Source of the DNA: Gemmatimonadota bacterium
GTDB taxonomy: Bacteria > Gemmatimonadota > Gemmatimonadetes > Palauibacterales > Palauibacteraceae
NCBI GenBank assembly: GCA_029861425.1
Contig: JAOTZH010000006.1
Coordinates: forward strand, 1-45,097
DNA length: 45,097 nt
Reading direction: 5' to 3'
The notes under the pieces: model-generated
Databases searched by the model: none
What the model was told of the DNA's origin: nothing
The model's input: the letters and a program-made list of their open reading frames with translations, nothing else
Shown: in pieces, positions 13,894-23,739 of the stretch
How positions within the stretch are numbered: position 1 is the first letter of the stretch
Layout: each line of letters begins with the position of its first letter
Position numbers and translations under genes: made by a program

Positions 13894-14934
13894 TTGCAAC
13901 TGAGGTTCGCGAAGCCCTCGAGCGTCGTCGCCCTTTCGGTCGTCGCCGTCGCGCTCGCCTCGGGTGGATGTGGGGAGCCCGCGGGCCGGTGGAGCGGCAC
14001 CGACTGGTGGACCATCTATGCGGCGCTTCCGGAGTGGGAGATGACCCCCGTCAGCGCCGGCGCCCTCGACGCGACCACCCAGCCGTTCCCCGGTGCCCGA
14101 CAGGTCGCGGTCTCCTCGAGCGGCCGGATCGCCATCGTGCAGGAGGGGATTCCGGCGGTCTGGGTCTACGATGACCGGGGACGATCGCTCGGGCGGGTCG
14201 GGAGGTCGGAGATCATGGACGTCCGCGGACCGGATCGAACCCGGATATGGGCGGAGCGGGCCGGCTGGTTGTCCGGAGACCGGCTCTGGATCTCCGAGCG
14301 GGGGGGCTCGATCGCGATCTTCAACCGCGAGATGAGCTTCTCGGACGTATGGGACGTGCCGGGCGAGGGGGATCCGCTCGTGATCGTCGAGGGAGCCCGC
14401 GGGATGTCGGCGCTCGTCCTCGGAGCGGGTGACGGCGTACGGACTCTCACCCGCGTGCACCGGGGCGGCGCCGGGGAGGCTCTAGCCGAGCTACCGAACT
14501 CCGATACGCTGGTCGCCTGTCCTGACGGAAGTTGCTTCGTGGTGCTCGAGCTCGCCGCCGACACGCTCGGTCTGAACGTGACGATCGAGACGGACGGAGG
14601 CAGAGGCGCGGGGTTTCGACTGCCTCGCGCGCCGGATGGCGCGCGGCCGCCGCCCGACGGATCTCCCCCCCGTGCCGCGAACCGGATTCTCGTGGACCGG
14701 AACCGACGCACATGGCTTGGTCTCGCGGAGGACGATTCGGGTCGAGCGTACTGGCTGATCCTCGACCCATCGGGAGCCCCGATCGGGCGTTTCGACCTCG
14801 CGAGCGGCCAGGCGGGTCTTCTCGCCGCCGACGGCGTCTTCTGGGCTCGGCGGGAGGCGGACGGGGTGACCTGGTTGCATCGCTACTCGTATCGCCCTCC
14901 TGCCCCCGTCGGACCGACCGCCGGGGGTTCCTAG
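13894..14934 (+). CDS. Probable exported lipoprotein with beta-propeller-like repeats
   Basis: 346 aa. An N-terminal signal segment (FAKPSSVVALSVVAVALASGGCGEP) ends in Cys, suggesting lipid attachment, though SGGC is an imperfect lipobox. The mature part is built of repeated units with aromatic/Asp turns (PAVWVYDDRGRSLGRVG, GSIAIFNREMSF, RTWLGLAEDDSGRAYWLILD), as in 6-bladed beta-propeller proteins; this is fold-level resemblance only. TTG 13894 is the only likely start, because an in-frame stop lies at 13882 and GGAG precedes it. The stop shares CTAG with the convergent copA stop. Function unknown. Confidence 0.8.
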   Translation: MQLRFAKPSSVVALSVVAVALASGGCGEPAGRWSGTDWWTIYAALPEWEMTPVSAGALDATTQPFPGARQVAVSSSGRIAIVQEGIPAVWVYDDRGRSLGRVGRSEIMDVRGPDRTRIWAERAGWLSGDRLWISERGGSIAIFNREMSFSDVWDVPGEGDPLVIVEGARGMSALVLGAGDGVRTLTRVHRGGAGEALAELPNSDTLVACPDGSCFVVLELAADTLGLNVTIETDGGRGAGFRLPRAPDGARPPPDGSPPRAANRILVDRNRRTWLGLAEDDSGRAYWLILDPSGAPIGRFDLASGQAGLLAADGVFWARREADGVTWLHRYSYRPPAPVGPTAGGS

Positions 14935-17234
14935 AGCCGAGTGAAGCGAAGCCTGTTGGCGTTCGCCACCACGGTGACCGAGCTGAGGGCCATCGCCGCT
15001 TCGGCTATCGCCGGGTGTAGAAGCCCAAGAAACGCCACGGGAATCGCGATCACGTTGTAGAAATACGCCCAGAAGAGGTTTTGCTTGATCTTTCGGAACG
15101 TCGCCCGCGCCAGTCTGCGGGCCCGAAGGACGGCGGCGAGGTCCTCGGAGACGAGCGTCACGTCGGCCGCCTCGATCGCGATGTCGGTCCCGGACCCCAC
15201 GGCGAGTCCGACATCGGCGATCTTCAGCGCCGGGGCATCGTTGATTCCGTCTCCGACGAATGCCACCGAAGCGCCGCTGGCCTGGAGGTCCCGGATCGCG
15301 TCGACCTTGTCGGCCGGGAGCATGCGCGCCCGGTAGTCGTCGATCCCGACGGCTTCGGCCACCGCCTTCGCGGTGCTCTCCGTGTCGCCCGTGAGCATGA
15401 TCGTTCTCAGTCCCTGGCCGCGAAGGGCACGTAGCGTCTCGCCCGCGTCGTCCCTCACCGGGTCTGCCATCGCGATAACGCCCAGCACGTGGGTCTCCAG
15501 CGCGACCAGAACAACCGTCCGCCCTCCCGTCTCGAGATCCGTGAGAGCGGTTTCGATCGGACCGATGTCGATGCCGCCCTCGGCCATCAGCTGCCGGTTT
15601 CCGACCCGAACGGTCCCTTCCGCGAGCTCGCCACGAACGCCGCGTCCGACCTCGGCGTGTGCTCCACGGGCCCGCGGAATGACGACCCCGAGCTCATCGG
15701 CGTACGAGACGATGGCCCGCGACAGGGGGTGCTCGGACGTCGCCTCGACGGCGGCGGCCAGACGGAGGACTTCCATCTCGGATGCGTTCCCCACGGGAAG
15801 ATCGCCCGAACCCTCCGCCTGGCCCGTGCGGACGGTCCTTACCTCCACGACCGCAGGGCGACCCCGCGTGAGGGTTCCGGTCTTGTCGAAGACGAGCGTG
15901 TCCGCGGAGTCGAGCGCCTGGATGGCCGCGCCATCACGTACGAGAACACCTCGCGTCGCCCCGAGCCCCGTGCCCACCATGAGCGCAGTCGGAGTCGCGA
16001 GTCCGAGCGCGCACGGGCACGCGATGACCAGCACCGCGACCGCGGCGAAGACGGCCAGGGAACCCCTGCCGAGGTCGTGGTTCACCCACGGAAACAGGCC
16101 GGACGCACGAGCCGCGATGCTGGCGAGCGCATCCGGGAACACGAGCCAGCCGACCAGCGCCAGACTGGCGATGATCACGATGGTCGGAACAAAGATGGCC
16201 GTTACCCGATCGGCGAACTCCTGGATCGGGACCTTGCTGGCCTGCGCCTCTTCCACCTGGCGGATCACACGGGCGAGGAACGTGTCGGCGCCGACACCGG
16301 TCGCCCGCACGCGCAGGACACCCGCGTGGTTCACTGTCGATCCTATGACGGGGTCCCCCGCGGCCCTGTCCACGGGGATCGACTCGCCGGTCGCCAGCGA
16401 CTCGTCGAGCGAACTCCGGCCCTCCACGATCACGCCGTCGGTCGGTATTCTCTCGCCGGGCCGGATCACCATGATGTCATCGAGCCTCACGTCGGCCGTG
16501 GGGACCTCCAGCTCGGCGCCTTCACGCTCGACGCGGGCCGTAGGCGCCTCCAGGGACAACAGCGCCTGGATGGCCGCGCTGGCTCGTCCCCGCGCGCGGA
16601 TCTCGATGAAACGGCCTGTGAGGTGGATCGCCACGATCATGGCGCCGATTCCCGCGTAGTTCATGATCATCGGCGCGACGCCCAGCGCGTGGAGGATGGC
16701 CCAGGCGCCGGTCGCGATCGACACTCCGGCACCCAGCGCAATCAGGACGTCCATGTTCGGGACCCCGCCGCGAGCCGACCGCCAGCCGCCCCTGAACGTC
16801 GCTCGTCCGGGCCCCGCGGCCACAATCAGCGCGAGAAGGGTCATCCCGGCATCGAACGCGACCGCGTTCGGCCAGCGGACCCCGAAGACCATCTCCGGGA
16901 TCATCCAGATCATGATCGGAACGGTGAGCGCCCACGCGAGACGCATCCTGGCGCGTGCCCCATCGAGGGCGGCGTCGGCGCGCTCGAGCCGCTCGCGCTC
17001 GGCACGAAGAGCGTCGCCGGGATCCCGGACGGGCGGCGAGAGCTCGTATCCGGCCGAGGCGACGGCCTCTCGCAGGTCGGAGAAACTCAGGTCGGATTGG
17101 GCGACATCGATGGTGGCGGTCTCCGCCGGGAGGCTCACGACGGCCTCGACGCCCTCGAGCGAGTTCAACTTCCGCTCAACGGCTGATGCGCAGCCGGCGC
17201 AGTGCATCCCGTCGATGCGATATACCTGCTTCAT
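14931..17234 (-). CDS. copA: Copper-exporting P1B-type ATPase CopA
   Basis: Inner-membrane ATP-driven exporter of Cu(I), 767 aa. Seen in order: an N-terminal heavy-metal domain with GMHCAGC (Cys12, Cys15), paired membrane helices, actuator motif TGES, the membrane metal-binding CPC (Cys406, Cys408), phosphorylation site D450 in VFDKTGTLTRG, the HP motif SEHPLSRA, the hinge GDGINDAPA, and final helices with YFYNVIAIPVA and MALSSVTVVANA, typical of the CopA subgroup. Start ATG 17234 has GAGGGG upstream. It lies 27 nt after csoR on the same strand, so it should be induced when CsoR binds copper. Confidence 0.96.
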   Translation of the reverse strand: MKQVYRIDGMHCAGCASAVERKLNSLEGVEAVVSLPAETATIDVAQSDLSFSDLREAVASAGYELSPPVRDPGDALRAERERLERADAALDGARARMRLAWALTVPIMIWMIPEMVFGVRWPNAVAFDAGMTLLALIVAAGPGRATFRGGWRSARGGVPNMDVLIALGAGVSIATGAWAILHALGVAPMIMNYAGIGAMIVAIHLTGRFIEIRARGRASAAIQALLSLEAPTARVEREGAELEVPTADVRLDDIMVIRPGERIPTDGVIVEGRSSLDESLATGESIPVDRAAGDPVIGSTVNHAGVLRVRATGVGADTFLARVIRQVEEAQASKVPIQEFADRVTAIFVPTIVIIASLALVGWLVFPDALASIAARASGLFPWVNHDLGRGSLAVFAAVAVLVIACPCALGLATPTALMVGTGLGATRGVLVRDGAAIQALDSADTLVFDKTGTLTRGRPAVVEVRTVRTGQAEGSGDLPVGNASEMEVLRLAAAVEATSEHPLSRAIVSYADELGVVIPRARGAHAEVGRGVRGELAEGTVRVGNRQLMAEGGIDIGPIETALTDLETGGRTVVLVALETHVLGVIAMADPVRDDAGETLRALRGQGLRTIMLTGDTESTAKAVAEAVGIDDYRARMLPADKVDAIRDLQASGASVAFVGDGINDAPALKIADVGLAVGSGTDIAIEAADVTLVSEDLAAVLRARRLARATFRKIKQNLFWAYFYNVIAIPVAFLGLLHPAIAEAAMALSSVTVVANANRLRFTRL

Positions 17235-17261
17235 GAGCTCATCCCCTCTGAGTGCCGATCG

Positions 17262-17555
17262 CTAGCGCACGAATCGGTGGAATAGATCGACGATCTCCTT
17301 GCGGACCTGATCGGCGGTCTCACCGCCCTCGGCGATCGCGCTTGTGGCGCAGCGCTCGAGATGGCTGGTGAGCAGTTCTTTCTCGGCGGACCGCAGGGCG
17401 GAGTGCACCGCCGCAAATTGATTGAGGATGTCCGGGCAGTATCGGTCGTCCTCGACCATGCGTGTGATGCCCTCCACCTGGCCGCGGATACGGGCCAGTC
17501 GCCGCGTAAGATCACCGCGCGTGGACGCGGGAATGCCCGCTGCGTGCGTTTTCAT
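17262..17555 (-). CDS. csoR: CsoR-family copper-sensing repressor
   Basis: Four-helix dimeric repressor of 97 aa. The Cu(I) ligand trio of CsoR is present: Cys40 (DRYCPDIL), His65 and Cys69 (TSHLERC). The helix RRLARIRGQVEGITRMVEDD is the family signature. ATG 17555 is preferred over the upstream in-frame ATG 17615, because a perfect TATAAT lies across 17614-17619 and would place the RNA start downstream of that ATG. First gene of the csoR-copA pair, probably repressing its own promoter. The Cys/His/Cys set fits copper rather than formaldehyde (FrmR) or nickel (RcnR) sensing, by family knowledge. Confidence 0.93.
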   Translation of the reverse strand: MKTHAAGIPASTRGDLTRRLARIRGQVEGITRMVEDDRYCPDILNQFAAVHSALRSAEKELLTSHLERCATSAIAEGGETADQVRKEIVDLFHRFVR

Positions 17556-17613
17556 GAAGCCTGTCTCGTCGACTCGGGTTCCATCCGTCCGGATCCGTTT
17601 GGACGTGCTCGAC

Positions 17614-17642
17614 ATTATACTATACCCCGGTAGGGTATACAA
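17614..17642 (-). promoter_or_regulatory. csoR-copA promoter with embedded CsoR operator
   Basis: On the minus strand TTGTAT (17642-17637), a 17-nt spacer and perfect TATAAT (17619-17614) form a sigma-70-type promoter. The spacer is filled by an inverted repeat TATACCC-N5-GGGTATA (17621-17639), matching the GTA/TAC-flanked G-tract form of CsoR operators. Repressor binding there would block polymerase directly. The same AT-rich core could also influence the divergent PspA-like gene at 17703. Confidence 0.8.
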
Positions 17643-17702
17643 TGGGTACGTCCGGTGGATCCTCGCTGGACGGAACGGCCGCTCCGTGCCTAGAATCCCG
17701 GC

Positions 17703-18374
17703 ATGTTCAAACGAATCAAACGCATGGTCGATCAGGCGCTCGATCACCTCGAGTCGAAGATTGACGATGTCTCGGACGACGACGTAGACCAGCTCATTCG
17801 CGCGATGCGCGACGAGCTCGTCGAGACGAAGACCCGAATCCCGGAGCTCGAGACGCTGATGACGTCGCAGCTCAAGCAGGCGGATCGGGAGAAATCGGAG
17901 GCGGCCGCTTGCGATCGACGAGCCGCGCAGGCCGCCGAGATCGCCGACGCAGAGACGCAGGAGGTCGCGGAGCGCTTCGCCGCGCAGCACCGCCAGCGGC
18001 TCGAGGTCCTTGTCATGAAGGCCGAGACCACCCGTCAGGAGATCTTGCAACATCGCGATGAAGTCGAGCAGATGACGGAGCAGCTGAAGGAAGCGATGGC
18101 TCGACGCGACTCGATCGGAATCCAGCAGCGGCGGGCGAAGGCCATCGAGAACAAGACGTCGCGCTTCGATTCCGTCGATGCGTTCGATCGAATGGCAGAC
18201 AAGATGGAAGGCGCCGGCGATATCGATGAGGCGGCCCGCGAGCTCGACCTGGAGCTCGATCCGCTCTCCGAGCCGGCGCCGCGCCGGGACTACGCGGTCG
18301 AGAAGGAGCTCCGTGAGTCCCGCGCCGAGGACATGCTGGAGGAGTTGAAGCGGCGAATGGGCGTCGACGAGTGA
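17703..18374 (+). CDS. PspA/IM30-like coiled-coil protein
   Basis: 223-aa, highly charged, almost entirely helical protein. The start MFKRIKRMVDQALDHLESKIDD, the R-A-M-R-D-E-L-V-E-T block, long central coiled coil (about 50-150) and C-terminal RFDSVDAFDRMADKMEGAG segment follow the PspA/IM30 (ESCRT-III-like) pattern of membrane-maintenance proteins. The match is by pattern, not strong identity. It would act at the cytoplasmic face of the inner membrane. GTGA overlap couples it to a sodium/solute symporter, an unusual partner, and its promoter must lie in the csoR operator region or just downstream. Confidence 0.75.
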   Translation: MFKRIKRMVDQALDHLESKIDDVSDDDVDQLIRAMRDELVETKTRIPELETLMTSQLKQADREKSEAAACDRRAAQAAEIADAETQEVAERFAAQHRQRLEVLVMKAETTRQEILQHRDEVEQMTEQLKEAMARRDSIGIQQRRAKAIENKTSRFDSVDAFDRMADKMEGAGDIDEAARELDLELDPLSEPAPRRDYAVEKELRESRAEDMLEELKRRMGVDE

Positions 18375-19921: not shown

Positions 19922-20572
19922 TCAGTTCCAGAGCGATCTGGCCAGCCCCGTCCGGAAGCTCGTCCCCGGCGCGTAGTACCCGCCCCAGAACGCCGCGACG
20001 AACCGCTGGCCCCGATCGGTCTGGTCAAGGAGCAGCCCGGTTTCACCGACACCGCGGTACGTGGTTCGAAGCTCCCCGTCGCGCATGTGGTACGTCAGCC
20101 GGTCACCCTTCTTGATCCCGCGAATCTCCAGGAAGCCGAACCAATCGCGCAGACCCGAAGTCACTTCCGCGAACGTCGCCGAATCGACCCACCCGGCGTC
20201 CACCGCTTTCCCCAGATCCTCGTCGACGCCGTCCAGGAACTGGTCGAGCCTGATGCTCCGCAGAAAGTCGATCCTCGCGATGGCCTCGTCGGCTTCGAGC
20301 ACCGTCGTGGCGACAGAATCGTCCGCCTCCCTCCCGTAGCGGGGCCGCTCGGCCACGAGCTTCGAGAGGGCCATTCCGGTCGGGCCATCGACTCGGACCG
20401 TGAGATGGAGCACATCGACCTTCAGGATCGTCTTCTCGAGCTTGAAGGACATCGTCGACCCATGACTGTCCGACAGGTCACTCAGCTCGGGCCCGGGACC
20501 AGGGGTCTGCGCGACGAGCCCGGACGAGAACGCCGCGAGCAGGACGGCGAAGAGCCAGGTCCACCTATTCAT
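19922..20572 (-). CDS. Exported chalcone-isomerase-like-fold protein
   Basis: 216 aa with a signal peptide (RWTWLFAVLLAAFSSGLVAQ). The body resembles bacterial chalcone isomerase-like (Chalcone_3) proteins: an alpha-helical ARIDFLRSIRLDQFLDGVDEDLG stretch, then GDRLTYHMRDGELRTTYRG, GLLLDQTDRGQRFVAAFWGGYYAP and a final TGLARSLW helix. These bacterial members are thought to bind lipids or small ligands and are not flavonoid enzymes. Start ATG 20572 lies inside the last codons of the upstream gene (8-nt overlap) with GGATCGGG just before it, so translation is probably coupled. Confidence 0.75.
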   Translation of the reverse strand: MNRWTWLFAVLLAAFSSGLVAQTPGPGPELSDLSDSHGSTMSFKLEKTILKVDVLHLTVRVDGPTGMALSKLVAERPRYGREADDSVATTVLEADEAIARIDFLRSIRLDQFLDGVDEDLGKAVDAGWVDSATFAEVTSGLRDWFGFLEIRGIKKGDRLTYHMRDGELRTTYRGVGETGLLLDQTDRGQRFVAAFWGGYYAPGTSFRTGLARSLWN

Positions 20573-22124
20573 CCCGATCCAACCTCGCGACCACATCGCG
20601 CCCTTTGATCTGCTTGCCGTTCAGACTTCTGACGACATCCTCGACGATCATCGAGTCTATGTCGATAAGGGCGAACTTCTGGCGAATCTCGATCTTTCCG
20701 ATCTGTCCGCCGGCGGCGCCGGTCTCGCCCGTAATCGCCCCCACGAAGTCGCCGGGTGCCGCCCCGTCCTGACGCCCTACGTTCACGAAGATCTTGCTCC
20801 AGGCCGGCCGGGTCGCCCGCTGGGCCTCGACGGCCCCGGGGGCCCGCGCCTTCGGGCGATCCGACGGTGATCGCGTCGCCGACGGGGCGGCGGTCTCCGA
20901 CGCGCCTTCGACCCGTGGTCGTACTTCGGTCTCGCGGAGGAGACTCGCCAGCGCCGCGCTCACGCGAGCGTAGCCGTGCTCCTCGATCAGCGGCTCGATG
21001 AGAAGCGACGCGCTCGCGAGATCACGCTCGTCCATCGCGGTCGAGATCCGTGCGCGGAAGCTGCCGATCTCATCGAAATGATGAGCGGTGGAATCCGGAA
21101 GCGGTCGAGCGGGCCACCCGGCACGCTCGGCCAGAATCTCGAGCTGGCGCACGTGTCGGGGCGCGACAATCGCCGCTCTCAGCCGGGCGTCCCCGAGCGC
21201 CCCGGTGAACTCGTCGCCGGTCCACGGCAGGCCGAACACCACATTGGCACCGCCCCCGCCAACCGTCTCCGTGCCGAGCTGAAGAACGGCGATGCCCTCG
21301 TCCGTCGGCCCTCCGGTCGTCGCGAAGCCTTCGATCGCCAGGGCGGCTCGCACGCCATCCGCCGAGCCCTCGCCGTCGCACCATACCGTGACGCTCTCGA
21401 TCGAGTCGTCGCCGGCCCAGCCGTGCAACATCTCAACAAGCCGTCGGAGCCGGGCGTCGTGACTCTCCGCCGTGGCGTGCCGCAGCGGTGGCCCCGTCCG
21501 ACCGGCTTTGTCGTCGATGTCCGTGTTCATGAGCTCCGGCGGCCAGCGTCGAGCTCGCGGCAGGAGTCTCTCGACGAGCTTGTCGAAATCGCGATCGCGC
21601 CGGTGCGTGACCGCGATCCGTCGCACCTCGTCACCGAGGGTCTGAAGCAACGCGTCGACCGCGGCCCATTCGTCCTGCAGGGCCGCGACATCGTCGAGGG
21701 CTAGCAAGCGGATTGCATCGACCGAGACGTCGCCGGATCGGATATCGGCGAGAAGCCGGGCCGGCGTGGCGATGACCATCGCACGCTCCGAGATGGGGAC
21801 GCCGGAGGCGGCACGGTCCGCGCTCCACAGCACCGTCTCCCAGCCCAGTTTCGATCCGTAGCGCTCGATCGACCGCGCGAGCCTGCGAGCCCGGTCGGGC
21901 GTCGCGACGAGCACGAGCCCACGGGCCCGCTCCTCACCGAGATCACGGATTCCGGCCGCACAGTAGAGCCGGCACAGTCGCGCTCCCTCCGCCGCGAGGA
22001 GCGCCATGTGATGGCCGCGCTCGATCGCGGGAGCGAGTGCCTCGACGGCCTCGGGAATCCGTTCCTCCGGTGAACGGGCCTCGATCAACCGCTGGATGGT
22101 CTCGAACTGTGTGACATCCGACAT
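20565..22124 (-). CDS. DEAD-box-derived RNA-binding protein with degenerate ATPase motifs (DbpA-like C-terminus)
   Basis: 519 aa. The layout follows a DEAD-box RNA helicase: motif Ia-like LVLVATPDRARRLA, Ib-like MVIATPARLLADI, a RecA-like second half, and a C-terminal DbpA-type RNA-binding domain (KIFVNVGRQDGAAPGDFVGAI to IKGRDVVARL). The catalytic motifs are gone: the Walker A position reads LLAAEGARLCRLY with no GKT, DEAD is replaced by LALDDVAAL, and SAT and HRxGR equivalents are not seen. A low-complexity linker (about 415-440) joins the halves. Probably an RNA-binding protein, perhaps in ribosome assembly, without helicase activity; that role is inference. Confidence 0.82.
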   Translation of the reverse strand: MSDVTQFETIQRLIEARSPEERIPEAVEALAPAIERGHHMALLAAEGARLCRLYCAAGIRDLGEERARGLVLVATPDRARRLARSIERYGSKLGWETVLWSADRAASGVPISERAMVIATPARLLADIRSGDVSVDAIRLLALDDVAALQDEWAAVDALLQTLGDEVRRIAVTHRRDRDFDKLVERLLPRARRWPPELMNTDIDDKAGRTGPPLRHATAESHDARLRRLVEMLHGWAGDDSIESVTVWCDGEGSADGVRAALAIEGFATTGGPTDEGIAVLQLGTETVGGGGANVVFGLPWTGDEFTGALGDARLRAAIVAPRHVRQLEILAERAGWPARPLPDSTAHHFDEIGSFRARISTAMDERDLASASLLIEPLIEEHGYARVSAALASLLRETEVRPRVEGASETAAPSATRSPSDRPKARAPGAVEAQRATRPAWSKIFVNVGRQDGAAPGDFVGAITGETGAAGGQIGKIEIRQKFALIDIDSMIVEDVVRSLNGKQIKGRDVVARLDRDE

Positions 22125-22350: not shown

Positions 22351-23739
22351 GTGATCGAGATCCTGACCGGAATCCAGAGCACGGTGTGGGGCGTCCCCCT
22401 GATCCTGCTGCTCCTCCTCACGGGACTGAACTACACCATTCTCCTGCGTGGGCTCCAGTTCCGGCGGCTCGCCCGAGGCCTGTGGCTCGCGTTCGTGCGC
22501 CGGAAGGAAGAGGGCGGGGAGCGAGAGGGCGACGTCTCCCACTATCAGGCCTTGATGACCGCGCTCGCGGCGACCGTCGGGATCGGGAACATCGTCGGTG
22601 TCGCGACCGCCCTGTCGGCCGGCGGCCCCGGGGCCTTGTTCTGGATGTGGGTGGCCGGCTTGCTCGGCATGGCGACGAAATACGCCGAGGCCGTGCTCGG
22701 CGTTCGGTTTCGCGAGACCGACCAACGGGGCGAAAAGGCCGGAGGCCCCATGTACTATCTCGAGTACGGCCTCGGGGGCGGTCGACTCGGGAAGGCCCTC
22801 GCCGTCTCGTTCGCCGCGTTCGCGACCGCGGCGTCGTTCGGGATCGGAAACGCGGTGCAGTCCCAGGCGGTGGCGGCGGCTCTGAACGACTCGTTCGGCG
22901 TTCCCGAGTGGCTGGTGGGCATCCTCGTCGCGGCGGCCGTCGCGGCGGTTATCATCGGCGGCATTCGTTCCATCGGGCGGTTCGCAGGCGTGTTCGTGCC
23001 ATCGATGATCATCCTCTATCTGCTCGGGTCTGGTCTGCTGCTGATCCTCAACGCCGAGAACGTTCCGGCCGCGGTCGGTCTCGTGTTCGACCACGCGTTC
23101 GGTACTCGTGCGGCCGCAGGTGGGGCGCTCGGATTCACCGTCGTTCAGGCGATGCGATTCGGGGTCGCGCGCGGGATCTTCTCGAACCAGTCGGGCCTCG
23201 GCACCGGCGGAATCGCCGCCGCGGCCGCGCAGACGAAGGAGCCCGTGCATCAGGCTCTGGTCTCGATGTCCGGGACGTTCATCGACACGATCGTCGTCTC
23301 GACGTTCACGGGTCTCGCGATCCTCTCGACCGGAGCCTTCGAGTCGGGGCGGGACGGCGCGAACATGACGCAGCTCGCCTTCGAGACCGGACTCCCCGGG
23401 GAGATCGGGGGCGTGTTCGTCGCGATCGCGCTCACGTTGTTCGCGTTCAGCACGATTATCGGCTGGTCCTATTACGGAGAGCGGAGCCTCGGATATCTCG
23501 CCGGCGGCCGCGCCACCCACGTGTATCGGCTGGCGTTCGTGCTCGTCGTGGGGTTCTCGGCGGTCGTCGACCTCGACGTGGTGTGGCTCGTCTCGGATAT
23601 CCTCAACGCCCTCATGGCCGCGCCGAACCTGCTGGGGCTGCTCTTACTGTCGGGAATCGTGAGGCGGGAGACCCGGCTCTACTTCGCGAAGCAGAAGCAG
23701 TCCGGTTTCGGGCAGAAGCGGGAGTCTCAGCCGCGATAG
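22351..23739 (+). CDS. Sodium:alanine symporter (AGCS family)
   Basis: Na+-coupled amino-acid carrier, 462 aa, about 11 membrane helices. Family hallmarks are seen: an N-terminal VPLILLLLLTGLNYTILLRGLQ stretch, the ALAATVGIGNIVGVATAL sodium-site block, GGPGALFWMWVAGLLGMATKYAE, GGPMYYLEYGLG, and RGIFSNQSGLGTGGIAAAAA. Likely substrate is alanine or glycine. Start GTG 22351 has GGAGG at 22334-22338, 12 nt upstream, a little far. The last 13 nt overlap the convergent small gene on the minus strand. Confidence 0.94.
   Translation: MIEILTGIQSTVWGVPLILLLLLTGLNYTILLRGLQFRRLARGLWLAFVRRKEEGGEREGDVSHYQALMTALAATVGIGNIVGVATALSAGGPGALFWMWVAGLLGMATKYAEAVLGVRFRETDQRGEKAGGPMYYLEYGLGGGRLGKALAVSFAAFATAASFGIGNAVQSQAVAAALNDSFGVPEWLVGILVAAAVAAVIIGGIRSIGRFAGVFVPSMIILYLLGSGLLLILNAENVPAAVGLVFDHAFGTRAAAGGALGFTVVQAMRFGVARGIFSNQSGLGTGGIAAAAAQTKEPVHQALVSMSGTFIDTIVVSTFTGLAILSTGAFESGRDGANMTQLAFETGLPGEIGGVFVAIALTLFAFSTIIGWSYYGERSLGYLAGGRATHVYRLAFVLVVGFSAVVDLDVVWLVSDILNALMAAPNLLGLLLLSGIVRRETRLYFAKQKQSGFGQKRESQPR

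Follow-up and report, generated by a model that had tools for sequence, protein, structure and literature searches.

A candidate family of DEAD-box-derived pseudohelicases with a DbpA RNA-binding domain in the Gemmatimonadota

E. coli DbpA is an active helicase that has no dimerization domain, and the yeast pseudohelicase Utp25/Def is eukaryotic and has no DbpA domain. Among characterised DbpA-domain proteins, DbpA, CsdA and YxiN take part in maturation of the 50S subunit. Several of these domains recognise helix 92, but not all: CsdA is one of the helicases with no binding to helix 92 (PMC8190605), and the site read by Hera is another one (PMC3695512). Pseudohelicases are a short list: a 2022 study (PMC9539457) counted only two proposed cases, D. 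radiodurans PriA and, second, Utp25. Like the protein described here, Utp25/Def has a DEAD-box fold with lost motifs, Utp25 being kept for small-subunit assembly (PMC9539457), and its origin is presumed to be independent of that of the Gemmatimonadota family. The PriA pseudohelicase is also bacterial, with phylum-restricted motif loss and with nucleic-acid binding shown biochemically to be kept (PMC4504706), but it is a DNA replication-restart factor, unlike the DEAD-box-derived RNA protein considered below.

The window, i.e. the whole 45,097-nucleotide stretch of a Gemmatimonadota contig that was analysed, carries on its minus strand a gene which we regard as probably encoding a vertically inherited pseudohelicase that would work as an ATP-independent 23S rRNA factor. 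The gene is an unbroken ORF of 519 codons from ATG to stop, with GC by codon position of the coding type (0.73/0.52/0.81), intact as the first-pass annotation had it. Its features and those of its divergent neighbour are as follows.

20565-22124, minus strand: pseudohelicase gene, whole; 519 aa, DEAD-box-derived, with a C-terminal DbpA RNA-binding domain (ORF, Pfam, orthologues, AlphaFold2, Foldseek)
21510-22052, minus strand: RecA-like lobe 1, degenerate; residues 25-205 (AlphaFold2, alignments, hhalign to intact DeaD)
21972-21995, minus strand: motif I (P-loop) relict AAEGARLC, Lys-Thr lost; residues 44-51 (alignment)
21684-21701, minus strand: motif II relict ALDDVA in place of [LIV][LIV]DEAD; residues 142-147 (alignment)
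21090-21485, minus strand: RecA-like lobe 2, shortened, without the QxxR strand-helix unit and motifs V and VI; residues 214-345 (alignment, AlphaFold2, hhalign)
20922-21089, minus strand: helical domain, probably homologous to the DeaD dimerization domain; residues 346-401 (PF25399, three helices in the model)
20805-20921, minus strand: linker, low-confidence and poorly conserved; residues 402-440 (pLDDT <50 at 402-439)
20568-20804, minus strand: DbpA RNA-binding domain (RBD), the best conserved part; residues 441-519 (PF03880, identity, dN/dS)
22351-23739, plus strand: sodium:alanine symporter, divergent neighbour, common to seven other loci examined

The only Pfam match above cut-off is the DbpA RBD itself (PF03880, residues 445-514, E=5.7e-21), and a PDB sequence search likewise matched DbpA through the C-terminus, so that the proposed DbpA-type C-terminal domain is indeed a good one. 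The DeaD dimerization domain (PF25399, residues 355-398, E=0.0023) falls below the Pfam cut-off, and weak matches to it at E≤0.01 were found in 17 of 48 relatives; neither a DEAD nor a Helicase_C match was obtained for the window protein. In an alignment with the intact DEAD proteins encoded by its own genome, the protein lacks all four of the active DEAD-box motifs (AxTGxGKT, DEAD, SAT and HRxGR), as had been noted from the sequence: motif I has changed from AxTGTGKT to AAEGARLC, motif II from DEAD to LDDVA and motif III from SAT to THR, the QxxR helix is deleted, and motif V and HRxGR (motif VI) are absent. Recognisable relics persist at motif Ia (PTREL to ATPDR) and motif Ib (TPGR to TPAR). 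From these missing residues it follows, almost certainly, that the protein would no longer hydrolyse ATP or unwind RNA. PF03880 matches the RBD in all 48 aligned members. In YxiN and Hera the key guanine is held by an Ile-Gly-x-Ile backbone site (PMC3695512); its glycine is invariant here (G476 in 48/48), and positions 475 and 478 are Ile or Val.

Intact DeaD/CsdA-type helicases of the Gemmatimonadota and of actinobacteria have the same order of parts (RecA1, RecA2, dimerization-like domain, DbpA RBD), with the P-loop, DEAD, SAT, QxxR helix, motif V and HRxGR that the window protein lacks. The hhalign profile comparison between the family and the intact DeaD helicases of Gemmatimonadota gave a collinear alignment of 535 columns (E=4.3e-62), in which the dimerization-like domain, sub-threshold in Pfam, lined up with that of DeaD; homology of the two-lobe layout to DEAD-box helicases is thus far beyond chance. 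An AlphaFold2 model built on 48 orthologues (pLDDT 84.6) shows two lobes of alpha/beta type followed by a domain of three helices, a linker without order and, last, the RBD. When this model was compared with the PDB using Foldseek, the first eight matches were full-length E. coli DbpA (best 7pli, E=1.3e-19; see also 7pmq), which is the best fold match and shares the RBD family. Whole-chain TM-scores against solved structures were low (0.30-0.42) because domain placement in the model, which is not to be trusted, differs from that in the structures. A separate model of a more divergent member from family f7 (pLDDT 86.3) again had full-length DbpA as its best PDB match. Neither the alignment nor the predicted secondary structure of lobe 2 contains the QxxR strand-helix unit. 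The comparison with DbpA therefore bears out the two-lobe layout, RecA lobes included, and in the predicted models the helicase fold is retained despite the loss of motifs.

Relatives were sought by contig scanning, in which a single-protein query gave no confirmed relatives and an alignment query recovered 80 loci. Amongst these, the relatives scoring above 400 bits are from Gemmatimonadota or an uncultured bacterium and all lack DEAD and HRxGR, and GKT, DEAD or both are retained in the matches from Actinomycetota, Planctomycetota and Bacillota; the exception amongst the non-Gemmatimonadota matches examined is L139, a low-scoring 269-aa fragment from an uncultured bacterium that allows no judgement. 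Those relatives from GTDB contigs that carry a name are Gemmatimonadota MAGs. The gene is present in 32 of 34 same-family relatives searched and in most of the families examined in the class (f1, the family of the window, f2, f3, f5, f6, f7, f8 and f10), and was not found in f4 in the wider-class survey. One genome of the same genus, G013, has no pseudohelicase gene though 93% complete and, at 2.5 Mb, is smaller than most of the genus, possibly a recent gene loss. Orthology of the loci is supported by neighbouring genes shared between families, namely the sodium:alanine symporter, a sodium:solute symporter, a PspA-like gene and a P-type ATPase, with an HU-like gene as an additional shared neighbour in other families.

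Two further observations concern the surroundings of the gene in the window. A 224-aa ORF on the same strand (19922-20596, minus strand) shares 32 bases with the 3' end of the pseudohelicase gene; it had no Pfam match and no relative at the other loci examined. At 14931-18053 (minus strand) a P-type metal ATPase adjoins a CsoR-type metal-sensitive repressor domain, the ORF of which is 263 aa as called and probably has its true start further in, since the domain match is confined to residues 181-257.

The suggestion that the window protein is a paralogue of an intact DbpA fared less well, as the window genome (assembly about 90% complete) contains no other PF03880 protein, and no second, intact DbpA was found; its DEAD matches include two intact RhlE-type helicases. 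Being the only DbpA-domain protein found in its genome, the window protein cannot depend on an intact DeaD. We scored intact DeaD, as full-length matches with E below 1e-180, in 197 genomes of the class and found it in 65 (36 in f7, 11 in f6, 10/10 in f8, six in f5 and two in f3), with none in the 22 genomes of f1 or the four of its sister family f2. In f7 and f8 the pseudohelicase and intact DeaD coexist. The main rival to an ATP-independent rRNA factor is a cofactor or regulator of an active DEAD-box helicase, either DeaD in genomes that have it or RhlE in the rest; the protein would pair with that helicase through its dimerization-like domain or RecA surface and target or restrain it. Conservation of the dimerization-like domain and the co-occurrence in f7 and f8 speak for such pairing, as does an intact DEAD-box helicase gene (423-445 aa) lying within a few genes in three f6 genomes (L154, L155 and L161), and Utp25 (PMC9539457) and D. 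radiodurans PriA (PMC4504706) have been proposed or shown to be helicase partners or cofactors. However, the gene persists in f1 and f2, where intact DeaD was not detected, and DeaD is therefore not an obligate partner; we consider this explanation unlikely, though it ranks ahead of the other alternatives.

In a tree that combined 41 degenerate sequences with 24 intact DbpA-domain and two RhlE-type ones, all the degenerate sequences fell in one clade (SH-aLRT 100). The clade was recovered with the motif columns removed, which rules out convergent independent losses of the catalytic glutamate, and with the dimerization-like domain and RBD alone (SH-aLRT 99). Its stem is long (1.05), so that the exact sister group is unsure, and families within it mostly group as in the taxonomy. 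The loss of motifs, the P-loop apart, is thereby shown to have a single origin, in the ancestor of the Gemmatimonadota class, and a vertically inherited DEAD-box pseudohelicase is the best reading of the gene. Judged by architecture (dimerization-like domain plus RBD) and by the tree, the ancestral protein appears to have been a DeaD/CsdA-type helicase and not DbpA itself, as the first-pass annotation would have had it. Motifs II, III, V and VI are missing from every one of the 41 degenerate sequences, as is the QxxR helix; the expected sharing of motif loss by orthologues was thus found across the class, and the change is not merely local decay. Separately, two f7 members of the clade, L189 and L191, show no DbpA domain in translation and carry long Arg/Gly-rich C-terminal tails, so the RBD is not indispensable everywhere.

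The P-loop has a different history. A GSGKT-type P-loop is still found in f2 (L044, L045 and L046) and f8 (L039), and its Lys-Thr has gone from the window protein and its family. State changes on the tree numbered one for the glutamate and four for the P-loop and, as the latter survives only in a few outer lineages, the catalytic glutamate was lost once and the P-loop later, several times; motifs II, III, V and VI were lost first. These P-loops are what would recommend an ATP-sensing RNA-binding switch, in which ATP is bound but not hydrolysed while the two lobes alternate between open and closed states on the RNA. Such a switch is very unlikely, since the Lys-Thr is lost in the window protein and its own family and since closure needs motifs V and VI and the QxxR helix, which have disappeared from every lineage.

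Selection was assessed as dN/dS between close relatives within the genus, the window sequence itself being too distant (~45% identity to its nearest relatives). Values were about 0.02-0.08 for the RBD, about 0.2-0.4 for RecA1, 0.2-0.8 for RecA2 and at least 0.4 in most pairs for the linker, and mean pairwise identity over the family was 0.54 for the RBD, 0.40 for the dimerization-like domain and 0.34 and 0.28 for the two lobes. Purifying selection is therefore extreme on the RBD and moderate on the RecA lobes, a pattern consistent with the earlier proposal that the gene is kept for binding rather than unwinding. Class-wide conservation and dN/dS together rule out local decay or a pseudogene. 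That the gene is slowly decaying with no role beyond residual RNA binding, as the fast evolution of lobe 2 (0.2-0.8 in several pairs) and the loss in G013 might hint, is barely credible given a reading frame that is unbroken in almost all genomes from most of the class, a single ancient origin, lobes under purifying selection and a confident predicted fold.

An ATP-independent 23S rRNA factor is favoured by the 50S role of DbpA-domain helicases taken with the presence of the Ile-Gly-x-Ile site. On this proposal a DeaD/CsdA-type gene would have lost its catalytic glutamate, arginine finger and RNA-gripping lobe-2 parts once in the class ancestor, followed by later, repeated loss of the P-loop. 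The protein would now occupy 23S rRNA that is still immature, serving without ATP as a placeholder or chaperone, and be displaced as 50S assembly proceeds, with an active RhlE-type helicase possibly doing the remodelling. RNA would very likely be bound through the DbpA domain. On balance we lean towards 23S rRNA near helix 92, during 50S assembly, as the target, although CsdA and Hera show that having the domain does not by itself reveal what is bound. No LSU (23S) rRNA gene, and hence no helix 92, was found in the window assembly. More tentatively, the dimerization-like domain and RecA lobes may act as a scaffold, keeping a further protein or another copy of this one in place at the site.

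In the usage of PMC9539457, the family combines loss of the sequence motifs with a fold that is retained in predicted models. We found no description of a Gemmatimonadota pseudohelicase family in the open-access literature searched, though absence there is no proof. As a pseudoenzyme the protein belongs to a known kind, but the family and its setting are new; it is probably a motor-less helper in ribosome building. It may be the first bacterial DEAD-box pseudohelicase family, class-wide and ancient: a factor for 23S rRNA assembly that works without ATP and that, in some families, is still present where all DbpA-domain helicases have gone. For bacteria, a pseudohelicase of DEAD-box descent that spans a whole class and carries an identifiable rRNA-binding domain would supply the RNA equivalent of the DNA case, PriA. 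Intermediates that are still extant, with the P-loop kept and the glutamate gone, reveal in what order the parts were lost, and comparing families that have an intact DeaD paralogue with those that lack one makes the contribution of the ATPase to 50S assembly directly testable. If the proposal is true, a site normally served by an ATP-driven enzyme would, in some families, be handled without a motor.
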